This document shows positions 2,242-37,767 of a DNA stretch of 64,000 nt, one piece after another. The position numbers and the translations under genes were made by a program. The notes beneath the pieces were generated by a model, which saw only the letters and a program-made list of their open reading frames with translations, searched no databases and was not told where the DNA came from. The DNA comes from Sinorhizobium fredii USDA 257 (GTDB lineage Bacteria > Pseudomonadota > Alphaproteobacteria > Rhizobiales > Rhizobiaceae): assembly GCF_000265205.3 (NCBI RefSeq), contig NC_018000.1:4960001-5024000 (forward strand), in the 5' to 3' direction. Numbering within the stretch: position 1 is the stretch's first letter; every line of letters starts with the position of its first letter.

Positions 2242-2318
2242 GCACCCGTAGCTCAGCTGGATAGAGTGTTGGATTCCGATTCCAAAGGTCACAGGTTCGA
2301 ATCCTGTCGGGTGCGCCA
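2242..2318 (+). tRNA. tRNA-Arg (anticodon CCG)
   Basis: The 77-base cloverleaf has a 7 bp acceptor stem (GCACCCG/CGGGTGC), the D-arm AGCTCAGCTGGATAGAGT, anticodon stem TTGGA/TCCAA around the loop TTCCGAT (CCG at 2276-2278), the T-arm GGTTCGAATCC, and an encoded CCA end. It reads CGG arginine codons. tRNA-Arg genes are common integration sites, and nearly all genes downstream in this window look accessory. Confidence 0.96.
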
Positions 2319-2366
2319 AAATGCCGGACAAAACAAACACTTGCCGCGGTCTTGTGAAAGCGCTCC

Positions 2367-2545
2367 TATGATTCGTCGCTGGTGGCGATTGGCCAGGGTT
2401 GCTTGTGCCGATAGGTTTATCCCTGCGCTTGGCGACGCCGGAACCGCCGTGAACCCGACTGATAAAGCTCTTATGGTTTGTCGCTACGGCCGCTTATTTG
2501 GTACGATTGTACCGTTAGGTTTGTCCCTGCGACGCGCGACGCCGC
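2367..2545. repeat. Degenerate direct repeat, about 105 bp period
   Basis: Two successive blocks share the order (A/G)TT(C/T)GTCGCT ... TAGGTTT(A/G)TCCCTGCG ... GCGACGCC. The TCGCT elements start at 2376 and 2481, and the TAGGTTT elements at 2412 and 2516. Spacing inside the two copies is conserved although the sequence has diverged. Origin and role are unknown. Confidence 0.5.
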
Positions 2546-12930: not shown

Positions 12931-12986
12931 AACCGGCCACCGTCAATAGCCAACTGAAGCGAGCTAGCACCTCAGTGGAGGCAGGC

Positions 12987-13508
12987 ATGTTTCTCTTGGA
13001 CACCAGCGTTCTCAGTCATGCGCAATATAGCCGGCAGCATCCAGCGGTGGGTGCGTGGTTGGAAGAGCAGGAAAGCGTAGCGATACCGTTTCCAGCTCTG
13101 CTTGAGGTTCAACAAGGCATTTTCGAAGTAAGGCTGACCAAGCCAGACCTTGCCGCAGAACTCCTCATTTGGCTCGAGGGGCTTCTGTCGGTGGACCACG
13201 ATTTTCCAGAGATCAATCCGGAAGTCGCACGTGTCTTGGCGATGTTGTACTGTTGCGAGCCCCTCAGGCATCTCTGGTATACGAACCCGGACAGCTCAAA
13301 AAAGAAGAAGCCTGGCCAAGACCTCTTCATCGCGGCGGTGTCGATCGCACACAACATACCTATCGCTACCCTCAACAATAAGGATTTTGCGATGATTGAT
13401 CGGTATCATAGGTTGCCGGGGGCCTATAATCCGGCCTTTTCCTTCTGGATCGTCGCCCCCCCGGAGACCAGACAAACCTGTGTAGTAAGTAGGGTGAAGG
13501 TAGCCTAG
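12987..13508 (+). CDS. PIN-domain ribonuclease, VapC-like toxin
   Basis: A 173-residue protein. The ATG at 12987 is preferred over a GTG at 12975 because TGGAGG sits at ideal spacing. Acidic PIN residues are visible: Asp in FLLDTSVLS, Glu in PALLEVQQG, and Asp in PGQDLFIAAVS, with IATLNNKDF near the end. PIN toxins of type II modules cleave RNA and are held in check by an adjacent antitoxin. Here the antitoxin-like gene is convergent and overlaps the stop by three bases, instead of being upstream in an operon. Confidence 0.85.
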   Translation: MFLLDTSVLSHAQYSRQHPAVGAWLEEQESVAIPFPALLEVQQGIFEVRLTKPDLAAELLIWLEGLLSVDHDFPEINPEVARVLAMLYCCEPLRHLWYTNPDSSKKKKPGQDLFIAAVSIAHNIPIATLNNKDFAMIDRYHRLPGAYNPAFSFWIVAPPETRQTCVVSRVKVA

Positions 13509-13750
13509 CGTTTTATCGGGCCACCGCGGGCAAGGTATCGGCCTGCGGGTTCTTTCTTGGCCACCGCTTTGAAGGTCAGCTCGAAAACGCCATCGCCATC
13601 CCGGATGGTCTGCACGGTTCCACTGCGAGCGGCGTCCAACACCTCAGCGATCCGCTGCTCGGCATCCTCTCGTTCCCAAGTCTGTGCTAGTTTCTGCACG
13701 AGTCCTCGCTTTTCTCGACGGCGCATTGATAGCCGATTCCGGATAGACAT
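13505..13750 (-). CDS. Small Phd-like antitoxin candidate
   Basis: Up to 81 residues. The core WEREDAEQRIAEVLDAARSG ... TIRDGDGVFELTF resembles the Phd/YefM fold, in which a helix with (A/R)F-type residues is followed by a turn and strand (GPQ-x-I-x-RDG). The start may instead be the ATG at 13726 (MRRREKRGLV), since neither ATG has a strong ribosome site. Its stop overlaps that of the PIN gene. The pairing is inferred from proximity and fold. Confidence 0.6.
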   Translation of the reverse strand: MSIRNRLSMRRREKRGLVQKLAQTWEREDAEQRIAEVLDAARSGTVQTIRDGDGVFELTFKAVAKKEPAGRYLARGGPIKR

Positions 13751-13804: not shown

Positions 13805-14005
13805 CTATAAGCTATCTTTGTCTTCCGGCTCAGGAAGGGATTGTTTGCGCTTCTTTTTTAGCTTCGGTCCGGACGTCCCTGGTCTTACAATTCGGCGGGG
13901 AAGAGTGGGCCGTTCCACACCACCGTCGAGTTCTTCTCCGAACGACCGCTCATTCGAAGAAATCCCCTGAACCCCGTTATCGTTCCCCAGTCTTCCGACG
14001 GCCAC
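13805..14005 (-). CDS. Small basic protein downstream of the FtsH-like gene
   Basis: A 66-residue frame from a GTG directly abutting the stop of the FtsH-like gene (TGAGTG), which suggests coupled translation. The C-terminus is lysine-rich (KLKKKRKQSLPEPEDKD). No homology recognised. It could be a chance frame. Confidence 0.35.
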   Translation of the reverse strand: MAVGRLGNDNGVQGISSNERSFGEELDGGVERPTLPRRIVRPGTSGPKLKKKRKQSLPEPEDKDSL

Positions 14006-15952
14006 TCACGGGGTCGACCTTCCGCGTGGCACCTCCCCAACGACATTGCCGCGCACGGTGGCTTCATCTCCCTGGAGCAATTCGGAAAACCGCTCGGCTG
14101 TCATTTCGACTTCGTCAGCGAGTATCCGCGCAATGGACCGTAGTGCTTCTCGCTTCGGCTCCAGCAGTTTGACAGCCCGCTGGCGGCAGGCTTCGAGGCG
14201 CGCCTTAACGGCCCTATTCGCCGCAGGGTCGACCCTATGGAGGCGCGGGATTGTCCGCTCGTTGTACGCCTCTGCGATCAAGCTTTCCCCGAAGCCAAAA
14301 AGCATCTCCATCATCGTTGCAAGACGTGTCGCCTGCGCGAGGTCGGACGCTGCGCTACCACCAACGGAAGTCGAGTGCCCTCCGAGTGCGATCTGCTCCG
14401 CGACCATCCCGCCCAGCAGAATGGTAATTCGCGAAAGGAAGTCTTCCTTTACCGGCATCAGGGGAAAGACTGATTTGAAGTCCGTGCCTCCAAGTTCGAG
14501 CCGCTTGTCATCGATTGGCCGCGAGACGTCGATGCACAAGCTTTCGAGATTACCCGGCTGCAGGATAACACCAACCATGGCATGCCCTACCTCATGGACC
14601 GCGATGCGAAAACGCTCGTCATCGGTGAAATCTCGTCGGGCTGGCATGGCGGCTTCGATGTCCTCGATGACCACGCGGTCCCCTCCTCGCCTGCGCGACA
14701 CACGTCTCGAGTCCCGCGCTAGCTTCGCCAGGTCCGCGCCACTCCAGCCCTTCGTGTGCTTCATAGACACCAGGAGGTCGAGGTCATCGTGAGCACCCAG
14801 GTGATGACGCATGATCGCTACCCTCGCATCCAAGTCAGGCAGCGGGATTCTGATTTCCCTCTCAAGACGTCCAGACCGAAGTAGCGCTGGATCAATAGCG
14901 TCGGAGTCGTTGGTTGCACCGATGACGATTACGCCTTCTCTTCCCTCCGACGGAGCAAGGCATTCGAGCAGCCCGTTAATCACCTGCCTCTTGTAATCAT
15001 GGTTGTAGCCCCCCTCGCCAACGTTGCGTGATCCAAAAGCGTCAAACTCGTCGAGGAACACGATCGACGGCCGCGATTTCGCCGCGGAGGCGAAAAGCTT
15101 ACGCATGGCCTTTAGCATATCCCCCAAATGACCCTCGGATTGCCACCGGGCCGCGGATGCAAGAAACAGCGTTGCCTCGCAACTGTTCGCCAATGCTTGC
15201 GCGTACATCGTTTTGCCGACACCAGGAGGGCCGCTTAGCAAGATGCCTTGGTCGATATCCTCCCACTTGATCTTGCCCTCTCGCCAATCATTGAGGTCGC
15301 GGACGAGTTCGAGGCCCCATTGCTTCGCCTCACCAAAGCCTGCGAGCGTCTCCAGGCGGATGCCCGCCGGCTTACTAACCGGAAAAGGCTGCTCTTCTTC
15401 GCGTGTTGACAACGTCGTCAGGTTCTTGATGACTCGGGCCATCGGGCGCGCTCGGTACGTCGCCAGGCGCACGCGTCTCAAGGGCTGCGCGGCCAGGAAT
15501 TCGGCATCGCCATACGAGAGCGTAAATCCCGGGAAGGTACGGGCGGCCGCGACAAAGTGGGCGGCAGTCGGGGGCAAGAGATCGATTTCCGCATCGAGCA
15601 TCATCCGGACATCTGCATTCACGCTCCTGTGGCCGTCGTGGCAGATGATGGTCTGGCGGAACCGTTTCATTTTGGAAACGATCTGCCAAGGCGCGGTGTC
15701 CAGGGAGTAGCTGCCATGGACGGCCGCCATGTCCTCGCCGTCGTCGTTGCAGCCTCCGCCGGCACGGAAGAGGAGGCGCGATGCCTCCTCATAAATGAAC
15801 CCATCTTCGGGCTCAGGCACGTGCAGCAAGATAGCAAACGAGAGATGCTGACGCCTCAGGAAAGGTCGCAACTGGCGGCGTAGGGCAAAAACTACGGCGG
15901 TCACGGCAAGGTTACGCGATTCTTCGCGCTTGGTAGTATCGCGGAATGACAT
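14006..15952 (-). CDS. Soluble FtsH-like AAA+ zinc protease, copy 1
   Basis: About 648 residues from the ATG at 15952 (preceded by GAGG). A novel N-terminal domain of ~220 residues without membrane segments comes first. An AAA+ module follows: Walker A GPPGVGKT near 241, Walker B VFLDEFDAFG near 297, and arginine finger LLRSGRLER. A pore-loop-like ARWQS contains Trp. An M41-type peptidase follows, with HEVGH near 453 and the third zinc ligand Asp in SAASDLAQATRLA. True FtsH is membrane-anchored, and this one is not. It is second in an operon behind a TnsA-like gene under a LexA-box promoter. A paralogous pair lies at 35040-37631. Function unknown. Confidence 0.88.
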   Translation of the reverse strand: MSFRDTTKREESRNLAVTAVVFALRRQLRPFLRRQHLSFAILLHVPEPEDGFIYEEASRLLFRAGGGCNDDGEDMAAVHGSYSLDTAPWQIVSKMKRFRQTIICHDGHRSVNADVRMMLDAEIDLLPPTAAHFVAAARTFPGFTLSYGDAEFLAAQPLRRVRLATYRARPMARVIKNLTTLSTREEEQPFPVSKPAGIRLETLAGFGEAKQWGLELVRDLNDWREGKIKWEDIDQGILLSGPPGVGKTMYAQALANSCEATLFLASAARWQSEGHLGDMLKAMRKLFASAAKSRPSIVFLDEFDAFGSRNVGEGGYNHDYKRQVINGLLECLAPSEGREGVIVIGATNDSDAIDPALLRSGRLEREIRIPLPDLDARVAIMRHHLGAHDDLDLLVSMKHTKGWSGADLAKLARDSRRVSRRRGGDRVVIEDIEAAMPARRDFTDDERFRIAVHEVGHAMVGVILQPGNLESLCIDVSRPIDDKRLELGGTDFKSVFPLMPVKEDFLSRITILLGGMVAEQIALGGHSTSVGGSAASDLAQATRLATMMEMLFGFGESLIAEAYNERTIPRLHRVDPAANRAVKARLEACRQRAVKLLEPKREALRSIARILADEVEMTAERFSELLQGDEATVRGNVVGEVPRGRSTP

Positions 15953-16000
15953 GGAAACCTCATGTATCGCTGGATGAATACGGGCGGGTGGCAAATTGGC

Positions 16001-16633
16001 CTAGCTTCGTATTCGGCGAACCATGGTCTCAGGGCCAATGAGCGCGTCGTCGAGTTCCACGTCGACAAAGCGCTGCAGGATCAGCGACGCAATCGCCGCC
16101 ACGGGTTCCGTGTTGCGAATGGCGCTAAGGCATTCCGACATTGTGAGCGAGCCCTCCTGATCCAGGAAGGCCAGTAAACGCAGTCTGTCTGCAAGGCTGA
16201 CTGTGACATTGGCATATTGAAGAAGATCGCGGGCATTCCGAAGCCGGAAACCGCCATCGTAAACTTCATCGACAGCAACAAGGCGATACGATGCCCGTTG
16301 CTCTCTGACCGCCTGTTTAATGTGTTCGATATCGACAGCCAGCACACGGTCAGCGGCGTCGAGGAACCGCACCCCGCCGTCACGGTCAACGACCCGAAAA
16401 TCCGGGGTATGACCGCATGATCCCACTTTAACGGTGGGGCCTGGCGCGGTCCAACAGGCAACGTCGGGATTGATGTCGAGGATGCAGGCAAGATCGCGCG
16501 CCTGCCTGGAGCGGAACAAGGGCTTGCCAACACACTTCAGCGTCGGCAGCGGCTCGGAATAGTCGACGGGAGCCGGCAGATCAGAGACCGCTTTATGCGG
16601 AGACTTCCTACGAGATGACATGGCCGCACTCAC
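16001..16633 (-). CDS. TnsA-like protein lacking nuclease residues, copy 1
   Basis: 210 residues. The segment SRQARDLACILDINPDVACW ... HTPDF ... GVRFLDAAD lines up with the TnsA endonuclease core S-x2-E-R-D ... D-P-D-V ... PDF ... (E/Q)-x-K. The expected catalytic Glu is Ala and the final Glu/Gln-x-Lys is replaced by LDA, so cutting activity is unlikely. The C-terminal ~90 residues (RNARDLLQYANVTVS ... IGPETMVRRIRS) resemble the TnsA winged-helix half. It is first gene of an SOS-type operon with the FtsH-like gene, 48 bases apart. The homology is my alignment by eye. Confidence 0.7.
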   Translation of the reverse strand: MSAAMSSRRKSPHKAVSDLPAPVDYSEPLPTLKCVGKPLFRSRQARDLACILDINPDVACWTAPGPTVKVGSCGHTPDFRVVDRDGGVRFLDAADRVLAVDIEHIKQAVREQRASYRLVAVDEVYDGGFRLRNARDLLQYANVTVSLADRLRLLAFLDQEGSLTMSECLSAIRNTEPVAAIASLILQRFVDVELDDALIGPETMVRRIRS

Positions 16634-16724
16634 AACACGAACGACGTTTCATGCAGCCGCGCGGCGGGCGCGGCGGACGATCAACGTATTCGGGAAGCGA
16701 GCGCGAACAGGTTTTTCATGAAGG

Positions 16725-16756
16725 GAACATATACAGAACAAACATTTTCAAGTCAA
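16725..16756 (-). promoter_or_regulatory. LexA-box promoter of TnsA-like/FtsH-like operon 1
   Basis: On the minus strand, -35 TTGACT (16751-16756) and -10 TATATG (16728-16733) are separated by exactly 17 bases. A GTTC-TGTATAT-GTTC box (16725-16739), the alphaproteobacterial LexA consensus GTTC-N7-GTTC, overlaps the -10. LexA binding here would block RNA polymerase until DNA damage. The first start codon is about 92 bases downstream. Confidence 0.85.
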
Positions 16757-33841: not shown

Positions 33842-34609
33842 CTAGATTTCGATGACGAGCTGCGGATCGAAGGCCGTCCCCTCTCCCGGATATCCGCGAG
33901 GGTTGGCAACGATCCTGCACTCTCCGACTCGGTAATCGACCTTCTGATGGACGTGACCATGCACCCACAATGCAGGCTGCCCTTCGACGATAAGGTCCTC
34001 CAGATCGGAAGCGTAGCATGCAGACAGCGGATCACCCCGGAACTCGGGTGGAATTGATCTGGGTGACGGAGCGTGATGGCTTAGGACCACTGTCTTCCAG
34101 GACGAGGACTTGGGCAGTGTCGTTTTGAGGAATGCCCGGGACTCGTGGTGCATTCGATAGGCGTGGATCGGCTTGAACTTCCAATAAGGAAGCTTGGAAA
34201 ACTTGATCTTCCGGTAGTCGTTCATACCGCTCTGGGCGGCCGCCATTGCCAGTTCGGGATCGCCGCCGTTGAGGCGGAAGTCGGTCCAGAGCGTCGCGCC
34301 AACAAATCTGACGTCGCCGATATCTACCGCTTCGTTTTCGAGCCAGTGGATGTGGGGATAGCGATCACGCAGCAATCGCGCATCGCGGATGCTCTCCTGC
34401 ACGGAGGCTCCGTAGTATTCATGGTTCCCTGCCGTGAACACGACGGGCATCGAGGAAGGGATGTTGGCCGCCAACCATTCGATGCTGGGGACGATGCCGC
34501 GTGTCAAAAGGTCCCCGGCGCAAACAAGGACCTCCGCATCTCGAGGCGGTGACTGAACGAATGGCTGGCCGAACTCCAGATGCAAATCGGAAATGATCCA
34601 GAGTTTCAC
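33842..34609 (-). CDS. Calcineurin-type metallophosphoesterase
   Basis: About 255 residues from a GTG at 34609 that begins VKLWIISDLHLEFG; longer starts lack family sequence. All metal motifs are present: SDLHLEFG, CAGDLLTRG, TAGNHEYYG, VVLSHHAPS and WVHGHVH. It is likely a soluble phosphoesterase acting on nucleotides or phosphoproteins. A small divergent gene lies 160 bases away. The substrate cannot be inferred. Confidence 0.88.
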   Translation of the reverse strand: MKLWIISDLHLEFGQPFVQSPPRDAEVLVCAGDLLTRGIVPSIEWLAANIPSSMPVVFTAGNHEYYGASVQESIRDARLLRDRYPHIHWLENEAVDIGDVRFVGATLWTDFRLNGGDPELAMAAAQSGMNDYRKIKFSKLPYWKFKPIHAYRMHHESRAFLKTTLPKSSSWKTVVLSHHAPSPRSIPPEFRGDPLSACYASDLEDLIVEGQPALWVHGHVHQKVDYRVGECRIVANPRGYPGEGTAFDPQLVIEI

Positions 34610-34770
34610 GCTTCGGCACCTTCCTGAACTCCAAGAGTCATCTTTCTGACCCCGACACAACAATTGGACACCTAGAGCCGATCGGTTTTATTCCGACAGA
34701 CAGGCTTTCTGTCTTGCCGGATAAGCGCGCAGAGCCCAAGGTGCTCCTGATCCAATTAGAGGAGGCAGCG

Positions 34771-35039: not shown

Positions 35040-36980
35040 TCACGTCCTGACGGATGCGGATTCGGTATTCCTGGACTTTACGCCGAGGAGCGCCCGGACC
35101 TCGTCACCGATGACATGTCCCTTTTCGACCAGCGCCTCGGTGAGATGGTCGAGTTCCTGACGACGCTCCGAAAGAAGCGCCACCGCTCGGTCGAACTGGG
35201 TCCTCAGCCTCGCATCGACGAGACTGCGCAGTTCCGGGTCACGATCACGGAGATACTCGAGGGGACGGTCCCCCTTTCCAAGCTCGACAGAAAGCACCTC
35301 ACCGAACCCGAAGTGACGCTCCAGCTTCGTGGCGATATCGCTTGCCAGCACCAGGTCCGACGACGGCGCGCCGCCTGCCCCGTCTGCATGGCAGCCATAG
35401 ACCACCGTCTCAGCCGCGATACCGCCCAAGAGCATCGCGATCCTGTCGTCGTAGTAGCTCACCGTCTTCACTCGTCCGACCTCGGGTTCGAAGACGGTCA
35501 TTCCGACGGACTGAGCGCCGACTCCAAGGGCCGCATCCCGATCGATGTGAACGTGTTTGAGCACGTCGCATGCAAGGACGACCGCGACGATGGCATGGCC
35601 AGCTTCGTGGATTGCAGTGTGCCGCAGTTCGCTCTCGCTTAGGACGTAGCGCTTGGGCATCACCTCGAGGAGGAGGTCTTCAGACAAGGCAACCTTCCGC
35701 CGCCTCGAAAGCCGCCTGGCATCGCGAGCAAGCTTCTCGATGTCAGCTCCGGACCAGCCCCTGGTCGCCGACACGAAACGAGCGAGATCGCCGCCGAACG
35801 CGTGATCCCGCAGATGGTGCCGGAGGATTGAGACCCGTGCAGCAACGTCGGGCAATGGGATTTCGATGAGCGTCTCGAGCCTTCCCGGACGAAGCAGGGC
35901 GCGGTCGATGATAGACGGATTGTTGGTGGCACCAACCACCACAATGCCCTCGCGGCCTTCCGACGGATCGAGACACTCGAGAAGCCCGTTGATCACCTGC
36001 CTATGGTAGTCTTGGTTCCCGTTATCGCTGAGAGCGTCCCTGTCGCCGAAACTGTCGAACTCGTCCAGGAACAGGATCGCGGGGGATTTCTTCCTTGCCT
36101 CGTCAAATGCTGCCCTCATTGCCTTGAGCAAGTCGCCGAGATGCCCCTTTGCCTGCCAGCGGGCTGCCGATGCCAGTACCAGTTCGACATCGCAGCTGGC
36201 GGCGAGTGCCTTCGCGAAGGACGTCTTGCCGCATCCCGGAGGCCCGTAAACGAGCGCGCCGCGGTCAACGTCCTCCCAGCCGATTTCCCTTGCCTTCCAG
36301 GCGCGGATGTCCTCGGCAAGTCGGAGGCCCCAATCCTTGGCCTGGCCGTAGCCGTGCATGTCCTCCAGCCTCAGGGTCGCCGTCGCTTCCGCAACAGGCT
36401 CCGGCTGTCGCTCCAATTGGGCCTGCCGTCGCAAGCGCCGGACTGCGCTCAGCAGCGGCCGTTGAGGCCGGAACGCCATTTTGACGTCGTCGAAGCAGTG
36501 CTGTGTCAGAAAGGCGGCAGTCTCGGTTGTCATCCCCGAGAGACCGATTTCCGATGCGGCAGCCATGTAATGGACGGCCGTAGCGCGAGGCACCTTCGCG
36601 ACGTAATCCGCAGCCAAGGCCAAATCAGACGACAGGCCATCGAGGGTGACGACAAACACCACCGCGCGACGAGCGGACCGGATTTTGGAGCAAGCGTTTC
36701 TGTCGCTGGCGAAATCGTCGTTGTCTGTGACCGACGTGACGGCAAACATGTCGTACCCGTGTTCGTCGTACGGACTCGCCGTGGCCAGCAACTCGCGCGC
36801 CGCATGCTCGTAGTACGTCACGGCGTCCGCGTCCTCGATCAGGAGGACAGCGACGAAACAGGCATCCGGTTTCTTCAGAAACGGCCGAAGGATACTACGG
36901 ACGCCGCACTTAGCGACGGCCACGGGCAGGCTGAAACTGGACTTCGGGCGTTTGGCTGTATCGAGGTGATTATATGTCAT
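35040..36980 (-). CDS. Soluble FtsH-like AAA+ zinc protease, copy 2
   Basis: 646 residues, the same architecture as the gene at 14006. An N-terminal ~220-residue domain without membrane segments comes first. Then Walker A GPPGCGKT at 246, Walker B LFLDEFDSFGD near 303, LLRPGRLE arginine finger, and ARWQA pore-like loop. The M41 centre is HEAGH at 458 with Asp in PSSDLVLASDIA. AAA+ sequence identity to copy 1 is high by eye, while the N-terminal domain has diverged. It starts 39 bases after the TnsA-like stop. Confidence 0.88.
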   Translation of the reverse strand: MTYNHLDTAKRPKSSFSLPVAVAKCGVRSILRPFLKKPDACFVAVLLIEDADAVTYYEHAARELLATASPYDEHGYDMFAVTSVTDNDDFASDRNACSKIRSARRAVVFVVTLDGLSSDLALAADYVAKVPRATAVHYMAAASEIGLSGMTTETAAFLTQHCFDDVKMAFRPQRPLLSAVRRLRRQAQLERQPEPVAEATATLRLEDMHGYGQAKDWGLRLAEDIRAWKAREIGWEDVDRGALVYGPPGCGKTSFAKALAASCDVELVLASAARWQAKGHLGDLLKAMRAAFDEARKKSPAILFLDEFDSFGDRDALSDNGNQDYHRQVINGLLECLDPSEGREGIVVVGATNNPSIIDRALLRPGRLETLIEIPLPDVAARVSILRHHLRDHAFGGDLARFVSATRGWSGADIEKLARDARRLSRRRKVALSEDLLLEVMPKRYVLSESELRHTAIHEAGHAIVAVVLACDVLKHVHIDRDAALGVGAQSVGMTVFEPEVGRVKTVSYYDDRIAMLLGGIAAETVVYGCHADGAGGAPSSDLVLASDIATKLERHFGFGEVLSVELGKGDRPLEYLRDRDPELRSLVDARLRTQFDRAVALLSERRQELDHLTEALVEKGHVIGDEVRALLGVKSRNTESASVRT

Positions 36981-37019: not shown

Positions 37020-37631
37020 TTACCGCGATATCCTGCGGACCGTCGTTTCCGGGCCGAGCAGCCCTTCATCCAGATCGACCTCGATAAACCCGCGCAGAAT
37101 GAGAGAAGCGATCCCGGGAACAGGGCGCGTTTCCTGAAAGGCCTTGAGGCACTCGGCAACAGGCATGGAGCCGTGTTCGTCCAGGGCAGCCAGAAGGCGA
37201 AGACGGTCGCCAAGCGGCGTATCGTGGTCGGCATAGCGGAGGAGGTCCCGGGCGTTCGCCAACCTCGGGCCGGAATAGACCTCCTCGCGCGGGATCAGCC
37301 AGTAACGCGCACCGCGATGGCGGGCGGCGGCCTCGACGACGGCAACGTCGACCGACCTGTCGGGAGCGTCCACGAACATCTGACCGCCGTCCGTGTCGAA
37401 GACGAGAAAATCGGGGACGTGGGAGGGGGACTCGAGATCGAGGGCGGTCGGCATGCAGCGCCAGACGGCCACTGACGGGTTGACGTCAAGAAGGCACGCT
37501 ACGTCGCGCGAGACCTGCGAGCGATAGAGCCTTGGACCCTCGCACTTCACTGTGCCTGCCGGCGGATGGATGCGGATTGACGCGGAATGCCTCACTGCGC
37601 GGAGCGACGCCGCGCGCTTTGCGATACCCAT
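37020..37631 (-). CDS. TnsA-like protein lacking nuclease residues, copy 2
   Basis: 203 residues. The ATG follows AGGTAGAG. RSQVSRDVACLLDVNPSVAVW ... HVPDFLVFDTDGGQMFVDAPD parallels the TnsA core, but the expected Glu is Ser and the Glu/Gln-x-Lys is absent, the same losses as copy 1. The C-terminal half (LANARDLLRYADHDTPLGDRL, LGPETTVRRISR) matches copy 1 closely. First gene of the second SOS-type operon. A non-cutting DNA-binding or adaptor role is inferred. Confidence 0.7.
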   Translation of the reverse strand: MGIAKRAASLRAVRHSASIRIHPPAGTVKCEGPRLYRSQVSRDVACLLDVNPSVAVWRCMPTALDLESPSHVPDFLVFDTDGGQMFVDAPDRSVDVAVVEAAARHRGARYWLIPREEVYSGPRLANARDLLRYADHDTPLGDRLRLLAALDEHGSMPVAECLKAFQETRPVPGIASLILRGFIEVDLDEGLLGPETTVRRISR

Positions 37632-37735: not shown

Positions 37736-37767
37736 GAACAAATAGGGAACATTTTTTAGGAAGTCAA
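37736..37767 (-). promoter_or_regulatory. LexA-box promoter of TnsA-like/FtsH-like operon 2
   Basis: On the minus strand, -35 TTGACT (37762-37767) and -10 TATTTG (37739-37744) are separated by 17 bases. A GTTC-CCTATTT-GTTC box (37736-37750) overlaps the -10. The architecture is the same as in operon 1, and the sequence between boxes also shares an A-rich tract before GTTC. Confidence 0.85.

Follow-up and report, generated by a model that had tools for sequence, protein, structure and literature searches.

What does a protease of FtsH type do beside a relative of the transposition nuclease TnsA? The question is raised by a stretch of 64,000 nucleotides from Sinorhizobium fredii USDA 257 (contig NC_018000.1, positions 4,960,001 to 5,024,000; hereafter the window), in which two minus-strand genes lie next to each other. 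A TnsA-like gene comes first (16001..16621), followed after a gap of 48 bp by the gene of a soluble FtsH-like AAA+ M41 protease (14006..15952), and a minus-strand LexA/SOS box, GTTC-N7-GTTC, stands at 16725..16739, about 104-118 bp 5' of the TnsA-like start. The identity of the pair and of its carrier, Tn7-like transposons, is solid, and the pair is real, well conserved and undescribed in the family libraries and literature searched. With a probability of about 0.4, we read it as a portable SOS-inducible targeted-proteolysis module with a TnsA-derived adaptor, whose likeliest target is Tn7-like transposition complexes.

An earlier note on this DNA, made from the letters alone, had described a two-gene operon and labelled it copy 1, and both points hold. 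For copy 1, start positions 16621 (TnsA-like) and 15952 (FtsH-like) were picked because they give the lengths of database copies, 206 and 648 residues. Copy 2, likewise on the minus strand, consists of a TnsA-like gene at 37020..37631 (203 residues, 50% identity with copy 1 across 188 residues), an FtsH-like gene at 35040..36980 (646 residues, 40% identity across 632 residues) and its own GTTC-N7-GTTC box at 37736..37750. Copy 3 lies in the same genome at 4.09 Mb, 0.9 Mb from the window, also with a LexA box of its own. A relative of the FtsH-like copy 1 with 95% identity occurs in Sinorhizobium meliloti. The low end given earlier, 13805, takes in a 66-residue open reading frame (ORF) 3' of the pair, for which no support was found.

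The descent of the first protein escapes sequence searches. It has no family match in Pfam, PADLOC and NCBIfam (E up to 1) or in PHROGs (E up to 0.01), and neither a Pfam nor a PDB profile search finds TnsA; structure and profile comparison were therefore used, and the two agree. The AlphaFold2 model of copy 1 (predicted local distance difference test, pLDDT, 89.7) matches TnsA by Foldseek and VIA-align (PDB 1f1z, 1t0f and chain M of 9bw1). It has the two-domain fold of TnsA, with an N-terminal PD-(D/E)XK-type fold bearing an altered active site and a C-terminal winged helix, and no other family stood out when the whole model was compared by VIA-align. Profile alignment by hhalign with TnsA of Tn7-like elements gave 94.4% (E 8.8e-8) and 97.4% (E 9.6e-12), at an identity to solved TnsA chains of 11-18%. 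Predicted structure and profile comparison thus support descent from TnsA for the protein that the earlier note had called TnsA-like. The protein shares its two-domain fold and profile-level homology with TnsA of Tn7 and Tn7-like transposons, but its gene is LexA-boxed and paired with a protease, and the elements carry a separate tnsA besides.

Judged from the alignment of 55 homologues, the nuclease site is altered, not plainly absent. We take the catalytic positions of TnsA to be E63, D114, Q130 and K132 (numbering verified on the 1f1z sequence). The position of E63 is acidic in none of the homologues and that of K132 is Lys in two, so that two of the four residues of an active 5'-strand endonuclease are lost. 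All 55 carry Asp at the other two, D114 and Q130, in the latter case as a replacement. The earlier statement that the nuclease residues are missing is therefore partly right: it fits the E63 and K132 positions and fails for the other two. Residues D78 and D92 of the TnsA-like protein are invariant (55/55), and it could be argued from them that the pair is a DNA-damage nuclease-protease, in which the TnsA-like protein keeps nuclease activity or DNA-end binding through a rearranged site and the protease clears blocking proteins during repair. The LexA box would suit such a role, as would the ORFs with an apparent PD...D-x-K motif, possible PD-(D/E)XK partners, seen by eye upstream of related proteases at loci L119, L120 and L138 (in L136 the Lys is replaced by Arg). 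Set against this are the lost E63 and K132 positions and a patchy, transposon-tied distribution, the TnsA-like gene being present in 42 of the 297 genomes of the taxonomic family, and we consider this explanation improbable. As a separate observation, the tnsA genes of type II Tn7-like elements (L022, L026, L032, L038, L039, L050, L053, L061, L068, L088, L094) themselves have Asp at the Q130 position with no obvious x-K after it, and the nuclease chemistry of these TnsA proteins may be altered as well.

The second protein looks like an active enzyme by its conserved residues. Copy 1 matches Pfam AAA (3.7e-32) and Peptidase_M41 (4.1e-15), and all 36 homologues compared keep Walker A and B, the arginine fingers, HExGH and the third zinc ligand unchanged, apart from one Thr-to-Ser change in Walker A, in keeping with the FtsH-type ATPase and peptidase first reported. 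The AAA and protease parts of its model (pLDDT 83.9, predicted TM score 0.56) match FtsH (Foldseek E 7.4e-28). It is nevertheless an outlying relative, scoring 197 bits against a cut-off of 600 for the NCBIfam FtsH equivalog TIGR01241. The proposed absence of a membrane anchor is borne out, no membrane helix being predicted: with a 19-residue hydropathy scan of the first 230 residues, one of the 36 homologues exceeds the threshold of 1.6, at 1.7. Thus the domains and catalytic residues are shared with FtsH (M41; TIGR01241; PDB 2ce7), whereas the anchor is absent, the protein has an N-terminal alpha/beta domain of its own, predicted over about 195 residues, the pore-loop position reads W-Q, and the gene is mobile and patchy in distribution.

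That the two genes are chance neighbours, or an accident of one lineage, was considered and is ruled out. A genome scan gave 144 relatives, and all counts out of 80 below refer to the best 80 of these loci, which fall in Rhizobiaceae, Phyllobacteriaceae and Methylobacteriaceae. In 71 of the 80 the TnsA-like gene is followed directly by the start of an FtsH-like gene, which in some cases is in pieces or short (L028, L049, L058). The nine exceptions, sorted partly by eye, comprise two contig ends (L051, L094), two loci where a DUF6634 gene intervenes (L071, L072), two where DUF6634 is present but a forward FtsH-like gene is lacking (L055, L084), a broken start (L047), a TnsA-like frame that reads into an FtsH-like remnant (L091) and one locus with no such gene (L059). 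In a separate set, the 42 family genomes mentioned above, 41 of the 54 TnsA-like genes are followed within 1.6 kb by an FtsH-like gene (at least 300 bits); 19 of 60 FtsH-like genes at that score are without a TnsA-like gene upstream. The two proteins also co-diverge, since their pairwise distances correlate (rho 0.635, 73 loci). DUF6634 genes stand beside the pair in 10 of 80 loci (L055, L071, L072, L076, L081 and L084 among them), and their product is a candidate third component of the system.

A wider-class scan of 240 genomes returned the genome of the window and three weak matches, plasmid records at E up to 1e-10 gave 15 hits (13 Rhizobium and two Sinorhizobium), phage records at E up to 1e-3 gave none, and none was confirmed in IMG/VR. 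The earlier note knew of no described system with this pair, and none was found in Pfam, PADLOC, NCBIfam, PHROGs or the literature searched, a search that mostly left subscription journals outside. The words "protease", "FtsH" and "SOS" are absent from the main text of a survey of Tn7-like cargo (PMC8649781).

The LexA box likewise recurs at these loci. The GTTC-N7-GTTC motif, given as the alphaproteobacterial LexA site in PMC3323433, occurs as an exact match 101-174 bp upstream of the TnsA-like start in 72 of 80 loci (71 of them at 101-150 bp), against 0.67 expected; of the remaining eight, six have a box with one mismatch and two have none. In the same loci it precedes none of 130 Tn7 core genes and none of 57 PIN, phosphoesterase and methyltransferase genes. 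The box that precedes this pair is thus a property of its relatives at large, and the pair is apparently SOS-inducible, to judge by the motif. The boxless core genes are in line with the transposase of Tn7 and of a CRISPR-associated transposon (CAST), reported not to be SOS-regulated (PMC12452197). A second upstream element, CGAATAGGTTGA, recurs with up to two mismatches in 52 of 80 loci, where 0.38 would be expected; it lies downstream of the LexA box, mostly 61-80 bp 5' of the TnsA-like start (L016-L095), and also stands before copy 2 of the window; it is perhaps the site of a second regulator or a leader element.

What carries the pair, namely Tn7-like transposons of Hyphomicrobiales, is the context that the earlier picture lacked. 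At least two of TnsA, TnsB, TnsC and TniQ are encoded in the 10-kb flanks of 36 of 80 pair loci, and three loci (L017, L019, L023) have in common a 9.1-9.5 kb block of the pair and tnsABC-tniQ. In L061 the element could be delimited exactly: it measures 45,653 bp, has TGT...ACA ends, inverted site repeats and a 5-bp duplication (ACAGA), adjoins tRNA-Met(CAT) and holds the pair between tnsA and its right end. A conserved stretch of 136 bp near the pair corresponds to tRNA-Met(CAT) and an element end. In the genome of the window a complete tnsA-tnsB-tnsC-tniQ set lies at 68977-75021 (window numbering), just beyond the right edge. The likely attachment site is tRNA-Arg(CCG) at 2242..2318 (+), and 35 bp past it begins a left end-like region (2354..2485, +) with two transposase-site-like repeats (2362, 2467). 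The end-like sites at 2354-2380 and, outside the window, at 75193-75218 are inverted and have GTGAAAGCGCTCC (13 bp) and TGGTTTGTCGCT (12 bp) in common. Most of the window is therefore probably one Tn7-like element of about 73 kb, running from tRNA-Arg to tnsABC-tniQ and holding copies 1 and 2; it is called probable, not proven, because no matching target duplication was found at its ends. The pair is accordingly a passenger between exact element ends in L061 and probably one in the window.

Three further observations concern these carriers. The roughly 9 kb on each side of copy 3 are free of Tn7 core genes. The second tnsABC-tniQ of the genome (L113, 3978000-3997999) has a PIN gene nearby and, of the pair, only a fragment of an FtsH-like gene (43 bits), which may be the remnant of a fourth copy. 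Between the pair and tnsA, the otherwise diverged loci L068 (about +2805 to +2865 from the TnsA-like start) and L088 (about +2719 to +2779) share a 62-bp stretch with 85% identity.

The link to Tn7-like transposition is also seen at the level of whole genomes. A TnsB profile matches in 31 of the 42 genomes with the TnsA-like gene against 6 of 255 others, and 24 of 54 TnsA-like genes have a strong TnsB no more than 40 kb away on their contig where random placement gives 0.89; both counts are biased by a profile built from pair-adjacent TnsB, and the second also by draft contigs. The test was therefore repeated with the independent Pfam TniQ as marker. Of the 44 genomes with a TniQ frame of at least 500 residues, a split chosen after the table had been seen, 32 have the TnsA-like gene, against 10 of 253 others (Fisher 2e-24); of the genomes with short TniQ only, 3 of 39 have it. 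The association holds for any TniQ (35/83 versus 7/214, Fisher 5e-16), these p-values being too small since genomes within one family are not independent. In 31 of 35 loci the pair is also found next to the tnsA end of the core, as a core gene might be; since cargo occupies that side in the element of the window, the position was not used as evidence.

On the most economical account, such a module would work as follows. On DNA damage, LexA would leave the box and both proteins would be made together. The TnsA-like protein, with its altered nuclease site and retained winged helix, would serve as an adaptor, a role that the earlier note had offered as one reading, using surfaces kept from its TnsA ancestor to bind a nucleoprotein complex, touching the protease and passing a protein of the complex to the soluble FtsH-type ring for unfolding and cutting. 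In Tn7, TnsA has TnsB, TnsC and the transposon-end DNA as its partners, which makes Tn7-like transposition complexes, those of the own element or of a competitor, the natural and likeliest targets. Transposition would then be stopped, cleared or excluded in damaged cells. The more specific version, in which a duplicated and altered TnsA hands own or rival transposition complexes to a private cytosolic FtsH-type protease for control or inter-element competition, is possible though on balance doubtful. That an AAA+ unfoldase can act on complexes of Tn7-like transposition has a precedent in ClpX, which increased CAST integration, as is thought by clearing the post-transposition complex (PMC12326709). 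The kind of enzyme is shared with ClpX, which acts on transposition complexes in Mu and CRISPR-associated (Tn7-like) transposition; ClpX is a host housekeeping protein, whereas the FtsH-like protease is element-borne, LexA-boxed and joined to a TnsA-derived partner, and its action on a transposon is only proposed.

Several observations weigh against this reading. A pure adaptor would not need the invariant D78 and D92. Twelve of the 44 long-TniQ genomes are without the TnsA-like gene, and seven genomes have it with no such transposase, barring weak hits of 29 and 19 bits. A complete pair is lacking in four of these seven genomes against 5 of 35 others (p 0.028, one possibly at a contig end); a first hand count had found the TnsA-like gene broken in four of seven against 1 of 35 (p 0.0015), but it relied on partial matches, some of them possibly due to contig ends. 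While distances of tnsA, tnsC and tniQ follow those of TnsB (rho 0.65-0.79), in type I elements the correlation is 0.18 for the TnsA-like protein (p 0.04) and 0.21 for the FtsH-like one (p 0.01), and in type II elements it is 0.03 and 0.07, not significant; for cargo, PIN gives 0.36 and the methyltransferase -0.14 (8 loci). Mapping the element label on the tree takes 27 changes, compared with 30.9 on average for shuffled labels, and 8 of 200 shuffles come out as low, which indicates some clustering. From the weak co-divergence with TnsB and the tree it follows that the pair has been swapped between elements, as a unit, and such swapping between element types speaks against a fixed cognate target. 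Finally, a bacterial screen did not find ClpX to be needed for another CAST (PMC12757027).

The distance and tree tests also went against a further possibility, that the pair is a core Tn7-like subunit required in every transposition event, a kind of self-encoded ClpX. The tight genome-level association and the common block with tnsABC-tniQ in three loci would have led one to expect it. The pair, however, shows neither the TnsB co-divergence nor the constant presence of core machinery: it moves between element types, at half of the strong TnsB loci (23 of 46) no TnsA-like gene turns up in 40 kb of contig, in some cases because the contig ends, and the second Tn7-like element of the genome has nothing but an FtsH-like fragment nearby. 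We regard this as the least likely of the explanations.

Swapping between elements is also what cargo does, and a role of the pair as anti-phage or anti-plasmid cargo ranks close behind the action on transposition complexes; we hold it to be a real contender, if somewhat improbable in itself. Invasion would trigger the SOS response, the TnsA-like protein would sense either DNA or a nucleoprotein of the phage, and its protease partner would degrade a phage or host protein, possibly with cell death. Both window copies, diverged from each other within one probable element, lie among defence genes: ProA/PDC-S37 adjoins copy 1, above the NCBI cut-off, and UzuA, a ThsB-like TIR gene and Qat (QatC and QatD over the cut-off, QatA and QatB under it) are also present. 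The best PADLOC match of the AAA domain is IetA (3.2e-24, residues 231-417), from an ATPase-protease defence system. In IetAS the ATPase works with a protease that is a separate subtilase, whereas in this pair the ATPase carries its own M41 domain and has a TnsA-like protein as partner; the match is confined to the AAA part. No PADLOC model covers the pair, the TnsA-like protein having none and the FtsH-like protein AAA-domain matches only. A protein derived from TnsA would also be odd as a phage sensor, and presence in 32 of 44 long-TniQ genomes is, in our judgement and with no cargo baseline, high for a single cargo item.

If the proposal of targeted proteolysis of transposition complexes is true, Tn7-like transposons of Hyphomicrobiales carry an element-borne transpososome shredder switched by DNA damage. 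Two open questions are touched, namely how Tn7-type transposition complexes are disassembled and how Tn7-like elements respond to damage of host DNA, and an element-borne protease with a TnsA-derived partner would be a direct handle on both. The first has a practical side, ClpX dependence being named as a limit for CAST tools in human cells (PMC12326709). If the pair instead serves defence, it combines effectors in a way that the defence libraries searched do not contain, and on either reading a transposition nuclease would have been repurposed and tied to a protease.

Among the neighbours, a PIN-domain gene (12975..13508, +; Pfam PIN 1.1e-6) has relatives in 34 of 80 pair loci. It converges on a short ORF (13505-13750, -) without a Pfam match, and the two are possibly a toxin-antitoxin pair. 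A metallophosphoesterase gene lies 3' of copy 2 (33842..34663, -; Pfam Metallophos 2.9e-13), with relatives in 9 of 80 loci by clustering. The region at 44-58 kb of the window holds metabolic-looking genes as cargo of the probable element.

The protease also belongs to a wider family, viewed here through 15 further regions chosen, not at random, because their FtsH-like gene lacks a good TnsA-like partner. The set tnsABC-tniQ is present in five of them (L116, L117, L118, L131, L134; two outside the taxonomic family), and in four a LexA box stands no more than about 220 bp 5' of the protease gene (L118, L129, L130, L135). The upstream nuclease-like motifs described above, read by eye, suggest that related proteases pair with nuclease-fold partners more widely. 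DUF6634 genes adjoin the protease in several of these regions (L116, L129, L130, L135, L137, L138), and weak TnsA-like matches of 18-28 bits occur in L129, L133 and L134.

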